Source: an uncultured Spirochaetaceae bacterium (GTDB lineage: Bacteria; Spirochaetota; Spirochaetia; Sphaerochaetales; Sphaerochaetaceae). Taken from it: 64,000 nucleotides of DNA. Position 1 is the first letter of the stretch; every line of letters starts with the position of its first letter. Under the pieces are notes generated by a model, which did not search any database, was not told the DNA's origin, and saw only the letters and a list, made by a program, of their open reading frames with translations. Both the position numbers and the translations under genes were made by a program. Shown one piece after another: positions 8,303 to 47,500 of this stretch. The stretch spans positions 1 through 64,000 of the forward strand of contig OMYY01000009.1 in NCBI GenBank assembly GCA_900315435.1. Reading direction: 5' to 3'.

Positions 8303-9546
8303 TGGCACGCAACCAGCAAGTCTGCTCTTTCTGCGGAAAGAGCATCAAGGACGTGAAACGTCTGATCAACGGGCCCGGAGTGGCCATTTGTGACGAATGC
8401 GTGAAGATCTGCGAGGAGATGCTCCGCGAGGATCCTGCCATGCAAGGGGCATCCATCGACACTTTGCCCGAGAAGATCCCTACTCCCGAGGAACTCAAGG
8501 AGTTCATGGATCAGTACGTGATTGGCCAGGACGAGGCCAAACGGATTCTCGCCGTGGCGGTCTACAACCACTACAAGCGGGTGAAGTACGAGAAGAAACT
8601 TGATACCGAGATGGAGAAGTCCAACATCCTGATGGTTGGCCCTACCGGAACGGGAAAGACGTTGCTCGCCCGGACCCTTGCACGCAAGCTCCAGGTGCCT
8701 TTCGCCATCGCTGACGCCACCACGCTCACCGAGGCCGGTTATGTTGGCGAAGATGTCGAGAACATTCTGCTGAAGCTGATCCAGAACGCGGACGACAACG
8801 TCGCCGCCGCGGAGCATGGCATCATTTTCATCGATGAAATCGACAAAATCGCGAAGAAGGAGGGGGAAAACCCTTCCATCACGCGTGATGTCAGCGGCGA
8901 GGGCGTGCAGCAGGCGCTTTTGAAAATCATCGAGGGGACGGTCGCTTCGGTCCCGCCACAGGGGGGGCGCAAGCATCCGAACCAGGAGATGATCCGCATC
9001 AACACCAAGGATATCCTTTTTATCTGCGGAGGTGCCTTCGTAGGTTTGGACAAGGTGATCGAGAAACGTGTCAGCACCCATTCTATGGGCTTTGGCGCCA
9101 AGGTCGAGGATACTTCCAAACGGAGCCTCCATGACTTGTACGCGCAGCTTGTTCCCGATGACCTGATCAAGTTCGGCCTGATTCCAGAGTTCATCGGCAG
9201 ATTGCCCATCCATGTCGCGCTGGACAACCTGAACAAGGAAGACCTGAAGCGGATCATTACCGAACCGAAGAACTCGGTGCTCAAGCAATACCAGCAAAGC
9301 TTCAAGATCGATGGCATTGACTTGGTTTTTGAAGACGACGCGGTGGACGCGATCGCCCAGAAAGCAATCGAGCAGAACACCGGAGCCCGTGGCATCAGGT
9401 CCATCGTTGAAGGGATGATGATGGATATCATGTATCGGATTCCTTCGATTCCGAATGTGAAGCAGGTCATCGTCTCCCGCGAGTCGGTCCTTAACCGCAA
9501 GAATCCTAAAATAATCGGAACGGATGGGAAGGAGATCGCTCTGTGA
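8302..9546 (+). CDS. clpX: ATP-dependent Clp protease ATP-binding subunit ClpX
   Basis: 414 aa. The N-terminal C4 zinc-binding domain uses C8, C11, C30 and C33. The AAA+ core has Walker A GPTGTGKT (113-120), Walker [10 protein letters not shown], pore loop GYVGEDVE, and the ClpX-typical IPEFIGRLP and TGARGIRSI sensor regions. It unfolds tagged substrates and passes them to ClpP. The start overlaps the clpP stop (TGATG), so expression is translationally coupled. Confidence 0.98.
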
Positions 9547-10526
9547 GCCTTTTCCCACCCGTCCCACAAGTGATTCTCACCCACCTCCAGGAGGACAGTT
9601 CCTTCATCGTCATCGGCCACAAGAGTCCGGATGGGGACTGTATCTCCAGCGAGCTGGGGATGGAATTCCTTCTCAAGGCGCTCGGCAAGCAGGTGTTGCT
9701 TGCCAATGCCGGCCCTTTCGAACGGCAAGAGATCCAATCCTTGCGGGGCCGGTTCGCCGACCATATTCCAGAAGCCTATCTGGCAGAAAGGCCGACCGTC
9801 GTGGTCGTGGACTGCTCTACCAGCGACAGGATTGGCAGCTTGTACGAGCAAGTGAAAGACCTTCACGTCATTGTCATCGACCACCACGCCAGCGGAACAC
9901 GCTGGGGACAAGACCTGTATATCGTTCCGGATTCTCCTTCCACCACCCTGCTCGTCCAGCATCTTTTTGAAACACTCCAGGTCGAGATTCCGGAAGAAGC
10001 GGCAAAGCGACTCTTCTTCGGATTCGCTACCGACACCGGCTTCTTCCGCTTCCTGCAGGTCCATCAGGCCGAGGCCCTCGATTCAGTCTCGCGCCTGGTA
10101 GCCAAGGGAGTCTCCCCCAACCAGGTCTACATGCAGATCAACGGGGGAAAGAGTCTCTCCTTCATCAAATACCTTGGAATCCTGATAGACCGGGCGGAAC
10201 CCTACCTTGATGGCAAAGTGATGGTCACGTACACTTGGCTGAAAGACAAGGAAACGTTCCACTGCGACAAACCGAGCGACCTTTTCTATAGCCAGATGCT
10301 CTCCATCGCCGGCGTACAGGCGGTCGCCCTATTCAAAGAGAAGGAAGACGGCACGGTCGAGGCTGGTCTGCGAGCCAGCCATGACAGCACCATCGACGTG
10401 GGACGGATCGCCGCTTCCTTCGGTGGTGGCGGACATGTGCACGCCAGCGGTTTCACGGTGAAGGGCGATCTTTTCACCATCCGTGACAACTTTTTGCGAC
10501 AAGTAGAGTTATTGCTCAAGAACTAA
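9543..10526 (+). CDS. nrnA: DHH-family phosphoesterase, NrnA-like (nanoRNase / pAp phosphatase)
   Basis: 327 aa. DHH motifs are in order: GHKSPDGDC (I), VVVDCS (II), IDHHAS (III) and FATDTGFFR (IV). A DHHA1 domain with [11 protein letters not shown] near the C-terminus follows. The family degrades 2-5-nt RNAs and dephosphorylates pAp, with Mn at the active site. Start is a GTG overlapping the clpX stop by 4 bp, with AAGGAG about 9 nt upstream, so it is the fourth gene of the tig operon. The choice between nanoRNase and pAp phosphatase cannot be made from sequence. Confidence 0.88.
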
Positions 10527-10545
10527 TTGGCATCACCTTTGCAAC

Positions 10546-10573
10546 CCATAGAAAACCTGGAGGTTTTCTATGG
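10546..10573. promoter_or_regulatory. Perfect 13-bp inverted repeat spanning SD and start codon
   Basis: Left arm 10546-10558, spacer GG, right arm 10561-10573. The arms (CCATAGAAAACCT / AGGTTTTCTATGG) are perfectly complementary. GGAGG of the ribosome-binding site (10559-10563) and the ATG at 10570 lie inside it. As RNA it would form a 12-bp stem with a TGGA loop hiding the start codon; as DNA it is a near-palindrome suited to a dimeric repressor. Confidence 0.75.
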
Positions 10574-11514
10574 ATGCACTATCCCTGCTCGTCCTCACGA
10601 GCCAGCAGCACCCTGAGGATGCGGCCTTGCACAAACGGGTCCGACAGAAGACGATGGAACTCTTCTACCATCTGCCCTACAAATATCACCTGATACCAGA
10701 GGATCAATGCGCAGCATTCCTGTTGTACTGCGAGCCTTCGATCGAGCGCTATATCGCCATGTTCCAACCGCGGACAAACTATGGATATTACATCATGTGC
10801 ATCATCCGGAGGCGCATCCCCTCATTCCTGCAAAAGCAGAACGAGGAGGAAGAAAGACGACTCTCCGTCTTGTTTGTCTCCTCGCCACAAATCCCCTACC
10901 AAGGGCAAGATGAGGAACTCCGAGGAGGAGCATTGTATCGCCGGGACGAGCTTCCCGTTGTCTTCCAGACGTTGCTCAGCCAAGGACCGACAACCGCACA
11001 GGGCCACGATCCCGCCATCCAGACCTTGTTGGAATCCCTTCATCATGATACCTGCAGGCGCGGACTGCTTCTCTCCTGCGCCATGGATCCCTCCTACGCG
11101 CTCGAGCATCACACTCCCCTGATAAGCAAGCTCCTAGGATGCGAGGAGACCCTTTTGACCGATTTCCTCGCCTCGCTCGACCAACTGCTTTTCGCCAAGC
11201 GGCAGGACTACAACGCCCATCTTGAACGGATTGGATTCCGTTTCTACCAAATCCATCGCTACCGAAGGGAAATCTGGGAAAACACAAAATCGGAATTCCG
11301 GAAAAAAGTCCAAGCACGGTACCGGTTCAACTTGTCGACTTGGAGAAAAAATCTTGAAGCACTGAAAAAACGCAAGAACATCTGTATCTCCCGCTCCCAA
11401 CTCGGCAAGATTCTCGGCGTGACGACAGGATCGATCCATCACAGCGTCATCACATGGAAGCATGCCATGCGGGACGCTCTGGACGTGCCCACGCCAATGG
11501 ACTATCTTGAGTAA
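10570..11514 (+). CDS. Uncharacterised protein with C-terminal helix-turn-helix-like segment
   Basis: 314 aa; I do not recognise a named family. The N-terminal 90 residues are helical and contain YHLPYKYHLIPEDQCAAFLL and a following YCEPSIERY, reminiscent of spirochaete sigma-like or hypothetical proteins. The C-terminal part is very basic (residues about 225-275). It ends with RSQLGKILGVTTGSIHHSV, which has the spacing of a helix-turn-helix. It is charged, with no signal peptide or membrane helix, so a DNA- or RNA-binding role is plausible but inferred. It sits between nrnA and rdgB; SD GGAGG is 6 nt before the ATG and buried in the inverted repeat at 10546-10573, which suggests autoregulation. 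Confidence 0.7.
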   Translation: MDALSLLVLTSQQHPEDAALHKRVRQKTMELFYHLPYKYHLIPEDQCAAFLLYCEPSIERYIAMFQPRTNYGYYIMCIIRRRIPSFLQKQNEEEERRLSVLFVSSPQIPYQGQDEELRGGALYRRDELPVVFQTLLSQGPTTAQGHDPAIQTLLESLHHDTCRRGLLLSCAMDPSYALEHHTPLISKLLGCEETLLTDFLASLDQLLFAKRQDYNAHLERIGFRFYQIHRYRREIWENTKSEFRKKVQARYRFNLSTWRKNLEALKKRKNICISRSQLGKILGVTTGSIHHSVITWKHAMRDALDVPTPMDYLE

Positions 11515-11517
11515 GAT

Positions 11518-12141
11518 ATGGAAATCATGCTAGCGAGTGGCAATGCCCACAAACGCGCGGAATTCGCGCGAATGCTTCCCTCTTGGGATGTCCTGCTTCC
11601 CAAGGAAAGGGGAATCGAGTTCTCCTGTGAGGAAAATGGCACAACCTTCATCGATAACGCGCTGATCAAGGCAAGAGCCCTCTTTCGTGTCGCACCAAAA
11701 GGCACTTTGATCCTGGCAGACGACTCTGGTCTCTGCGTGGACGCCCTTGACGGCCAGCCAGGAATCCATACGGCACGTTACGGCATGGAGCCTGGAGGAA
11801 AGGAACTTCCTAGCGGGCAACGCAACGCGCTCCTGCTACGGAATATGGAGGCCTACAAGGAGATGAGCCAGAGGTCGGCGCATTTCGTCTGCGCGATTGC
11901 CTTGATTGCCGACCCGTACCGGACCTTTGTCGTCCAAGAAGCGGTTGACGGCCATATCGCATTCACCCCCTATGGGAAAGGCGGTTTCGGCTACGACCCG
12001 ATTTTCATCTGTGACGAAATCGGGCAGAGCATGGCGGCTGCATCCGATGCGTTGAAGGACCAGTACAGCCACCGGGGCCGGGCGCTGAACCATCTCGCAA
12101 GACTGTTGGAGGAAATCCGTGAAAACGCAAAAACGCTCTGA
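11518..12141 (+). CDS. rdgB: Non-canonical purine NTP pyrophosphatase (RdgB/HAM1)
   Basis: 207 aa. Family signatures are present: SGNAHKRAEF at the N-terminus (substrate loop), LADDSGLCVDAL (catalytic acidic residues), YGKGGFGYDPIF and the C-terminal SHRGRAL. It hydrolyses dITP and XTP to monophosphates and keeps deaminated purines out of DNA and RNA. The ATG is 3 bp after the preceding stop and has no clear SD, so translation is probably coupled. Its 3' end overlaps pepF by 23 bp. Confidence 0.94.
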   Translation: MEIMLASGNAHKRAEFARMLPSWDVLLPKERGIEFSCEENGTTFIDNALIKARALFRVAPKGTLILADDSGLCVDALDGQPGIHTARYGMEPGGKELPSGQRNALLLRNMEAYKEMSQRSAHFVCAIALIADPYRTFVVQEAVDGHIAFTPYGKGGFGYDPIFICDEIGQSMAAASDALKDQYSHRGRALNHLARLLEEIRENAKTL

Positions 12142-40593: not shown

Positions 40594-40627
40594 GGTGGAG
40601 CCGGAGCGATCCGGCTCCACCTTTCTT
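40594..40627 (+). terminator. Rho-independent terminator of the purine permease
   Basis: GGTGGAGCCGGA, GCGA loop, TCCGGCTCCACC, then TTTCTT: 12-bp perfect stem, 25 nt after the stop. Confidence 0.9.
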
Positions 40628-44584: not shown

Positions 44585-47500
44585 TCATAGCATTCTCTGA
44601 ATGTGTACCGTGTCGCTGTAATCGAAAGTGGTCTTCGTACCGGTTTCCTTCGTCACGGTTTCAGCCCCTGTGTTATTCAAAAGATCAATGGTTGAAGTGA
44701 TGGTAACCGTTGCCGTACGAGTATCGGACGAAGAATTGAAATAAGGGTATGTAACAACCATTGCAACAGGGGAATCCGCCAATTTCTCATCGAACTTCCC
44801 GACCTCAACGCCGACATATTTCAACGGATCCCTACCCAAATATCCCGCAAATCCATCCTTTGAGATACCATCGCTAGCGCGAAGTCCGACTTCCTCTGTT
44901 GGAGAAAGAATGAAGGAAGAACTTCCTGCAATTTCCATTGCGCTGGTGATTTGGAAATATTGGTTTTTAATTGTCGCAGGATGCAGAATAACATCCCGTG
45001 GATTACAGCTGACAACAGTTGCGCCGGAATAGCCAGTGTAAGGGTTTGTGCTGGGACCCCACCAATCTCCACCGAACTGACCATTGGCCGCGCTCAGAAC
45101 TTGATTGATCTGGTAATTTACCAAGTTGACAATCTCCCGTGGGGACAAATCGCGGAACGCATTGTCCACCTCCTTGGAAGTTGACACTTGGCCACTTGAA
45201 ATAATGGTGGACACACTAGCCGAGTGTGTCATTCTTACTGACTGGGAAGCAGAACCATACTCAAGGAAGCAATCGTAGTGGTATCTTCCTTTATTGTCGA
45301 CGGTAACCCCCTCTGTGTCCTTCGTAACGTCCACAGTCTGGATATCATCTTGCATAATTCGGTAGGCAGATGCGCCTGGACGGGGTGTCCAAACAATAGT
45401 GAAATATTCCCTGTCGTCATAAGGAATCACAACAACAGAATCAGGAGGAGCAAGTCGGTACCCATAATTCACAGGTATGGCATTTTCATCCACATCCGAT
45501 GTCGAAGACAATGCTGATACGATTTTCCCGCCTCCATCATTTCTGTATGCTGCCACAGAATAGTACATGAGGTCATCGACGTCGTCAGTGAACGCAGAGG
45601 TGCCCGTTGTACCGGTCAATGATTCTGATTCTTCCGCGGCTGCATTTATGGAAGAAGAATACACGTAATATCCGTCAGCTCCCGTAACATCATCCCAATC
45701 AACAACAATCTGGTAGGAATAATTTCCGTGCGAAGCCGTCACAACAGCCGGCGGTCCGAACCATCCTCCCGTCACGCCTTCCACGGCTCCCGCGTCGACA
45801 GTGATTCCCGCGTCATCATTCGTCGCCAGGATCTTCACCGTGTAATCAGTCGACTTCGGGTACGGATTGGCCGTCGATTTGGCGAACAAAAAGGTCTGGT
45901 CATCGTTCTCGTAGGAGAAAACATAGGAACAAGAACCATCACTTGTGATATCAGTAGCATCCACCGTGATGTTTCCGACCGGGCTTACGCTTGTGTCGGT
46001 TCCTTTGTAGAGGATGAATTCGTAGGAGGTCGCGCCCGGCATCGCCTTGAAGGTCACTGCGAAACTCGTGGGGGTATTGTCCTTCGCCGCGTTGTTCTGG
46101 GCGTAGGCGCTCAGAACCGGCCCGAGGGTATTTCCATCCTCCGCCACACTTCTCGCCGTTTCGTTCCCTTCGCTGTCGACCGCCACCGCCTGGAACTCAT
46201 ACGTATGGCCCGCGACAGGCGTGGTTCCGAGCAAAGTCGAGACGGAATAATCTGCTGTTTCTTTCGGGATATTCCCGGAAGTCGGATATGCCGTCTCCAC
46301 CGAAGAGGAATCGTCTTTGTCCTTCACATATACCCTATAGCCGCTGAAATCGCGACTCCCTTCCCAAGCGCTGTCAAAAGTCAGGGTTATGTCGGCAAGC
46401 GACGCACCGTCGCTTGCGATGAAGGAAGGAGCAAGAAGTGTCGAACCGTTTGTCGAAACGAGTGTTGTCGTCCCGTTGTACGGATCGCTCTCTTCTGTTG
46501 CGTATGTTGCTTCGACATAGAAAGCTGTCGAGTCGAGTCCGCTGATCGAAATCATGGCATTGAACGTCGAGATACCGGTTTCCGTGTCGTCCGTCCGCGT
46601 CACGGTATAGGGAATCGTCGCATCTCCGACAGTCACCGTGCTCGAAACCGATGTCGAGTCATTCCACCCGACCGTGATTGATTCCGTGTTTTCGCCCCAG
46701 CGGATCGTGTAGGACAGATTCGCCGCGTCCAGAGACGGATTGGTTTTGTCTCCACCGTAGTAGATCTTGGAAGGATCGGATGTGCTCAGCCTGGTCTGCC
46801 AAGAAAGCTTCACCGAAGATGCGAGGGACGTAGTCGCCGAGAGATTCCCGGTGACGTAATCGACGGCAACGAACCAATCGGGGGAATAACCGAGGGCATC
46901 GTCCGACTGGCGGAGAGAGGAGACGGTGCCGTCGCTGTATTGGACACCCACGGAGAAAGTCCACGTATGCTTGGTGCGCGAATTGAACGTAGAGGAAAAA
47001 TTCGGCCCCGTTGCGATGCGCGCGACCGCGCTTACTCCTCCGGTTGTCTGGGTAATTGTCACATCGTCAAGCAGCTGAGCCCCATGTCCATCGTCGCAAT
47101 AGACAACGAAGGAGCAGTCATCGGGAAGCCCGGACTGCGAATGCCAATCATAGAACCACGACAGATTTGCTTCGACCGTGGCATCCCGGCTTGTCGCTGT
47201 ATAAGTTCCGCTATTCGTCACCGTCAAATCCGTCGGCAGAAATATCGTATACCCCGGCTCCGCCGTCACGGCGATGGAAGAGGACGAATCCTGTTCGTAA
47301 TACACTTTACCATTGACGATATAAGCAGCTGTCACCCGGTACAGATACTCTGTGTTTGCCGACACAGTCGTGTCGGTGAATGTATAGACCGTTTTCCCAA
47401 GTGAATCGAGCGCCGTCTGGGTGAAGGATGTGTTGCTCGTATCGTTGATGTCCGTTTCTTTGCGCACCACCGCCGTCCATGTCAATCCGTCGTCGTCACT

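Follow-up and report, generated by a model that had tools for sequence, protein, structure and literature searches.

A predicted sigma-54 transcription start inside a start-codon hairpin: a probable translational insulator of a putative ECF-like sigma factor gene in spirochaetes

Introduction

The locus analysed here raises the question of why the start of a gene should be buried in a perfect hairpin, and in which transcripts such a structure would act. In the window, by which the whole 64,000-nt stretch of DNA under analysis is meant, positions 10546-10573 read CCATAGAAAACCT-GG-AGGTTTTCTATGG, two perfect 13-bp arms separated by a 2-nt spacer, and both the Shine-Dalgarno (SD) sequence GGAGG and the ATG (10570-10572) of a 314-aa gene are enclosed by this palindrome, as an initial annotation of the DNA had correctly described. 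The features over and after the start are the following:

10546..10558, + strand: left arm of the hairpin, the first 8 of whose 13 bases precede the predicted transcription start
10559..10563, + strand: SD sequence GGAGG, lying in the spacer/loop and the right arm
10561..10573, + strand: right arm of the hairpin, which takes in part of the SD as well as the ATG (10570-10572)
10570..11514, + strand: 314-aa gene, probably for a divergent sigma-70-family (ECF-like) factor, as judged from family profiles and a structure model

The palindrome and its genomic setting

When folded as RNA, the palindrome forms 12 pairs closed by a 4-nt loop. No other site in the 64 kb combined 13-bp arms with a loop of at most 8 nt, and such sites were found in 1 of 150 first-order Markov sequences in one run and in 0 of 60 in another, the chance expectation of such a palindrome being about 0.007 per 64 kb. 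Palindromes of 12 bp appeared in 4 of 10 Markov sequences of a small run, which is an unlucky draw given the larger runs (5 of 60, and 0.027 per sequence). Two other hairpins were observed in the window: a perfect 12-bp hairpin with a 4-nt loop, followed by a T-rich stretch, at 40594-40621, which looks like an ordinary terminator, and a 10-bp hairpin with a 3-nt loop at 46395-46417.

The gene order around the palindrome is clpP, clpX, nrnA, the 314-aa gene and an xtp-like gene, in which clpP, clpX and xtp are names assigned from the sequences. The immediate neighbours are:

9543..10526, + strand: nrnA-like DHH/DHHA1 phosphoesterase gene (Pfam DHH 1.6e-13, DHHA1 3.2e-8)
11518..12141, + strand: xtp/rdgB-like gene (named from its sequence), the ORF directly downstream of the 314-aa gene

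The nrnA stop codon lies 43 nt before the ATG of the 314-aa gene and both genes point in the same direction, nrnA being the close co-directional upstream gene that belongs to a hairpin of the Bacillus subtilis sigG type (discussed in the last section). A consensus scan of 9400-10700 for an intrinsic terminator of nrnA found none. The xtp/rdgB-like gene is likely to share a transcript with the 314-aa gene.

For comparison, out of 129 genomes of the family in which the gene was detected, 113 were used and 16 with weak or partial matches were left out, and the working sample of 111 distinct relatives consisted of 114 loci minus two exact duplicates (L059 and L102) and one locus with no start (L144); one member, L015, belongs to another family. 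In this sample, 86 of 111 relatives had a co-directional nrnA upstream, and 30 of 111 had a co-directional xtp-like copy downstream, where most of the retrieved stretches ended too early to reveal one.

The product as a probable divergent sigma factor

Within the window's family the protein was detected in 129 of 139 genomes and, with E of at most 1e-10, in 214 of the 297 class genomes searched; its closest named relative is a protein of the MAG "Spirochaetales bacterium", 70% identical. Two segments of the protein are of interest:

residues ~1-98 of the 314-aa protein: region 2, from structure comparison of the model
residues ~275-304 of the 314-aa protein: region-4-like helix-turn-helix (HTH), from the family profile and from NCBIfam/Pfam matches in relatives

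Searched alone against Pfam and NCBIfam, the window protein had nothing above cut-off. At the family level, TIGR02937 (sigma70-ECF) was found in 10 of 18 aligned members, with a best value of 4e-9, and Sigma70_r4_2 in 5 of 18, and positions 281-314 of the family profile matched ECF region 4 of the SigE, SigW and SigH structures (E about 1e-3 to 1e-2). A region 4 HTH at the C terminus is therefore a property seen in the family, the window protein by itself matching none of the profiles, and the earlier remark that the protein ends in an HTH-like segment was borne out, this segment being most like sigma region 4. At the N terminus, a region 2 fold was recognised by structure alignment of the AlphaFold model (pLDDT 87): residues 2-96 aligned with sigma-E region 2 (4lup_A) over 91 residues with rmsd 3.2 and Z 8.6, in a range where helical folds easily reach Z 8, and the same region also aligned with 2map, 5or5, 8x6g and 9isn. 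A Foldseek search with the model returned nothing below E 0.001, the best sigma chain having E 0.69. Canonical ECF factors consist of regions 2 and 4 with only a short linker, an arrangement from which this protein departs by some 170 mostly helical residues between the two, and for this reason it is named ECF-like and is not filed as a canonical ECF factor. Taken together, the family profiles and the model suggest that the gene probably encodes a divergent sigma-70-family (ECF-like) sigma factor. A literature search for sigma factors or RpoN in Sphaerochaeta returned a paper on Borrelia and otherwise no title that named such a factor, which is not proof of absence.

A sigma-54 promoter whose predicted start falls in the left arm

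Between nrnA and the palindrome, the following signals were recognised:

10528..10543, + strand: sigma-54 (-24/-12) element TGGCAT-CACCT-TTGCA, read from the sequence, directly after the nrnA stop codon
10554 (+/- 2), + strand: predicted start of sigma-54 transcription, placed 12 nt beyond the C of TTGC

The pattern TGGCAT-N5-TTGCA is the sigma-54 consensus, and the element has the make-up of a textbook sigma-54 promoter, with GG at -24, GC at -12, the correct spacing and rpoN in the genome. The DNA-binding domain of RpoN was found in 60 of 61 genomes searched, the window's genome among them. The start predicted from this element, at about 10554, falls within the left arm of the hairpin, and the site of the activator (bEBP) that a sigma-54 promoter calls for would fall inside nrnA. 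A scan of 9400-10700 for sigma-70-type promoters found none, so that any read-through RNA would have to begin further upstream.

The element is strongly conserved. A sigma-54 score of at least 12 of 15 was reached by 88 of the 111 upstream regions versus 2.9% of shuffled upstreams, and a score of at least 14 by 58 of 111 versus 0.14%. For the class check, 40 places were hand-picked from the 214 genomes with the gene so as to spread over families, of which 39 were usable (L235 was too short); among these relatives, mostly of other families, the element was present in 33 of 39 versus 1.9% of shuffles. Some relatives, e.g., L007, L011, L019 and L083, have the gene without the element. In the window's genome the strict consensus occurred at 8 sites versus 4 for the reversed pattern, an excess that was clearer in most of the eight genomes searched.

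Strict sigma-54 elements were also observed before genes for an RpoH-like sigma-70 factor, Hsp20 and PspA (assigned by Pfam on one gene each, the rest being judged from sequence), namely at L184 and L185 in the window's genome, L188 and L190 in the same genus, and L197, L202, L206, L212 and L216, which gives a hint of a sigma-54 stress regulon in the family.

Cost of opening the SD and start codon

The cost of opening the SD and the start codon was compared in the read-through RNA, in the sigma-54-started RNA and in RNA with the 11 nt before the start shuffled. For the window gene, it amounted to 17.2 kcal/mol in the read-through RNA, a value equalled by 1 of 3000 shuffles (shuffled mean 7.5), and to 5.2 kcal/mol in the sigma-54 transcript. 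When the 5' end was shifted by one base, from 10551 to 10552, the cost fell from 9.6 to 6.0 kcal/mol, and with the 5' end at 10554 it was 5.0 kcal/mol. The initial annotation had proposed that the folded RNA would strongly block initiation, which agrees with the figure for the read-through RNA, and had overlooked the sigma-54 promoter. Since the predicted start lies inside the left arm, the block would concern read-through transcripts and not the gene's own mRNA.

The same comparison was made for those relatives with a sigma-54 score of at least 12, a start at -32 to -9 and an SD match of at least 4, which 85 of the 111 pass. Mean costs over these 85 genes were 12.0 kcal/mol in read-through RNA, 8.5 in shuffled RNA and 4.5 in the gene's own transcript, and 41 of the 85 reached p<0.05 (p floor 0.016), the remaining 44 having no individual significance; the Wilcoxon test gave p=5e-13, the genes being related to one another, and averaging by genus (13 genera) gave p=0.0034. 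The effect was unevenly distributed: p<0.05 was reached by 3/3 genes of the window's genus, 19/22 of genus g3, 6/12 of g11, 3/3 of g21, 1/1 of g2, 1/1 of g20 and 1/2 of g15, by 7/34 of the largest genus, g16, and by none of the seven genes from g4, g5, g14, g17 and the extra-family genome together.

The bases that pair with the SD and start codon showed an enrichment of about 2.2-fold at -11..-1 relative to the predicted start and a slight one in the flanking intervals (-16..-12 and 0..+4), staying near the null elsewhere. In the minimum free energy (MFE) folds of the 39 significant genes with upstream SD/start pairing, 87% of the left-arm bases lay upstream of the start; the other two of the 41 (L094 and L104) had no such pairing in the MFE fold. 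As judged on the predicted start, the SD and start codon thus pair upstream of the gene's own transcript, as in a hairpin of the sigG type.

Control genes behaved differently from the family genes. Twenty-six window genes given a dummy start had means of 8.1 versus 8.2, with 1 of 26 at p<0.05. Control sigma-54 sites were taken from four (G000, G001, G024 and part of G004) of eight genomes listed, and gave 43 sites, of which 19 had a gene no more than 160 nt away and 11 had one within 60 nt. Among these 11 other sigma-54 genes none was at p<0.05 (one of the 11 was without a shuffle null), and the combined Fisher p of 0.019 points to a weak general pairing tendency among sigma-54 genes. In the RpoH-like genes L197, L216 and L184, SD pairing upstream of the predicted start was weaker (p 0.07-0.08; p 0.30 in L190), and these genes may possibly use the same insulating device.

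Conservation of the pairing and of the sequence

In the 25 upstream regions shown from the window's genus and g3, the hairpin covers the SD or the start. When 20 of these regions were aligned, the only columns without variation were both halves of the promoter, the ATG and two G of the SD, and the arms varied. Loop length in the relatives ranged from 4 to 23 nt and stability from about -16 to -21 kcal/mol, and in several g3 genes the -12 element is itself part of the left arm. In L004, of the same genus and with a protein 25-26% identical, the outer pairs are kept and the inner pairs differ, with G-U in the RNA. A lack of conservation in close relatives had been named beforehand as an outcome that would speak against the proposal, and the opposite was observed: the hairpin persists in the two further genomes of the genus that were available. 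The palindrome sequence was not conserved between orthologues.

Outside the family, the 19 genes that pass the filters had a mean cost of 9.0 versus 8.0 kcal/mol for shuffled RNA, with 3 of 19 at p<0.05 (Wilcoxon p=0.003). The sigma-54 element is class-wide, and a strong hairpin is characteristic mainly of the window's family. Two single loci may be mentioned here: in L138 (genus g16), an anti-SD stretch was noticed by eye upstream of the sigma-54-like element, so that the hairpin would enclose the whole promoter, and in L257, of another family, a long stem stands just before the start codon over a GGGGG SD, a case that failed the SD filter and falls outside the count.

Proposed mechanism and alternative explanations

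What the computations show is a promoter element and a hairpin, the position of each relative to the other, the conservation of both and the sigma-family membership of the protein family; that transcription starts at the predicted site, that read-through RNA exists and that translation is affected are inferences. The sigma-factor gene would be transcribed by sigma-54 RNA polymerase from the 10528-10543 element, starting near 10554. In RNA entering from the clpX-nrnA direction, the full hairpin would form, hiding the SD and AUG, and no sigma factor would be made; sigma-54-started RNA would lack the 5' part of the left arm, so that the hairpin could not form and the SD and AUG would stay open. 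If the hairpin forms in read-through RNA only, synthesis of the sigma factor would depend strictly on sigma-54 and its activator. We consider it probable that the locus is such a sigma-54-to-sigma cascade, with the hairpin as a translational insulator that silences read-through RNA from nrnA.

An alternative is that the hairpin acts in the read-through mRNA as a conditional switch, which a small RNA, an RNA-binding protein or temperature would open. A model for this is reported in Borrelia burgdorferi rpoS, which has a sigma-54 promoter together with a longer transcript in which DsrABb exposes the SD (PMC12472547). However, the stability of -16 to -21 kcal/mol is very high for a simple thermometer, the arms are too variable for one conserved antisense RNA, and an Rfam scan of the window returned only a tRNA above the gathering cut-offs, with no thermometer or riboswitch family, by which a known Rfam riboswitch or thermometer was ruled out. 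A conditional switch is therefore regarded as unlikely.

It was also suggested, in the initial annotation, that a dimer might bind the site as DNA and that the protein might thereby regulate its own gene. A dimeric repressor, possibly the encoded protein, would then occupy the palindrome over the sigma-54 start. The perfect dyad does span the promoter start, the protein does have an HTH, and the strand-asymmetry test of RNA pairing against a DNA palindrome gave p=0.09 beyond composition, which is compatible with a palindrome acting at the DNA level. Nevertheless, no operator sequence is conserved among orthologues: the arm sequences vary while the pairing with the SD and AUG, and its position relative to the start, persist. 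Moreover, the loop ranges from 4 to 23 nt, the palindrome has a single copy in the whole genome even when up to 3 mismatches are allowed, and the HTH resembles sigma region 4. For the unconserved sequence, the variable loop and the single copy, the operator was dropped as the main explanation, and the autoregulatory proposal appears quite improbable.

A third possibility is that transcription really begins upstream of the left arm, the hairpin exerting a constant damping of the gene's own mRNA. The transcription start of the 314-aa gene is a prediction, and a 5-bp hairpin of this kind at the ribosome-binding site is described inside the B. subtilis sigG mRNA (PMC5942855). The enrichment of pairing partners is, however, centred at -11..-1 before the predicted start and null from +5 on, and the SDs are open in the own transcripts, which makes this reading very doubtful. 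Finally, a chance palindrome without a role, to which the relatives lacking a significant hairpin might be thought to point, is hardly credible at about 0.007 expected per 64 kb and with a strong family-wide and genus-level signal.

Implications and comparison with known systems

Returning to the insulator as the preferred reading, its extension to other spirochaetes is somewhat favoured by our evaluation: most of the class Spirochaetia would have an undescribed sigma-54-to-sigma-70-family cascade built on the ECF-like protein, and in the window's family an anti-SD arm would have evolved in the 11 bases that separate the -12 element from the start, one short sequence serving both as promoter DNA and as read-through silencer. 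If so, spirochaetes outside Borrelia would have a conserved sigma factor under sigma-54 control, and a search for its regulon could now begin; the locus would also offer a clear, repeated case in which RNA structure alone insulates a gene from the transcription of its neighbour. The placement test, in which the pairing partner is limited to the bases just before the start, is applicable to any genome with recognisable promoters.

Three known systems may be set beside the window gene. In the lysozyme gene e of phage T4, a hairpin hides the ribosome-binding site in the long early RNA, and the late RNA starts inside the hairpin. This layout, with the start inside the hairpin, would be shared by the window gene, from which gene e differs in being a phage gene and not one for a sigma factor.

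In B. subtilis sigG (spoIIIG), a large hairpin was proposed to block read-through translation and to be unable to form in RNA started at the gene's own promoter (PMC5942855). Both cases have a sigma-factor gene behind a co-directional upstream gene and a proposed hairpin that blocks read-through. They differ in that sigG has a promoter of the sigma-F/sigma-G type and encodes a sporulation sigma factor, whereas the window gene has a sigma-54 promoter and probably encodes an ECF-like factor, and in that the left arm of the window gene overlaps the bases that separate the -12 element from the start.

The third system, Borrelia burgdorferi rpoS, belongs to the same phylum. Its sigma-54 promoter is accompanied by a longer upstream transcript in which the SD is under the control of RNA structure and is opened by a small RNA, as reported in PMC12472547 and PMC11109971. 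As in the window, a sigma-54 promoter drives a gene of the sigma-70 family. The Borrelia system differs in that the product is RpoS and not an ECF-like factor, and in that its long transcript has a -35/-10 promoter of its own together with opening by the small RNA.
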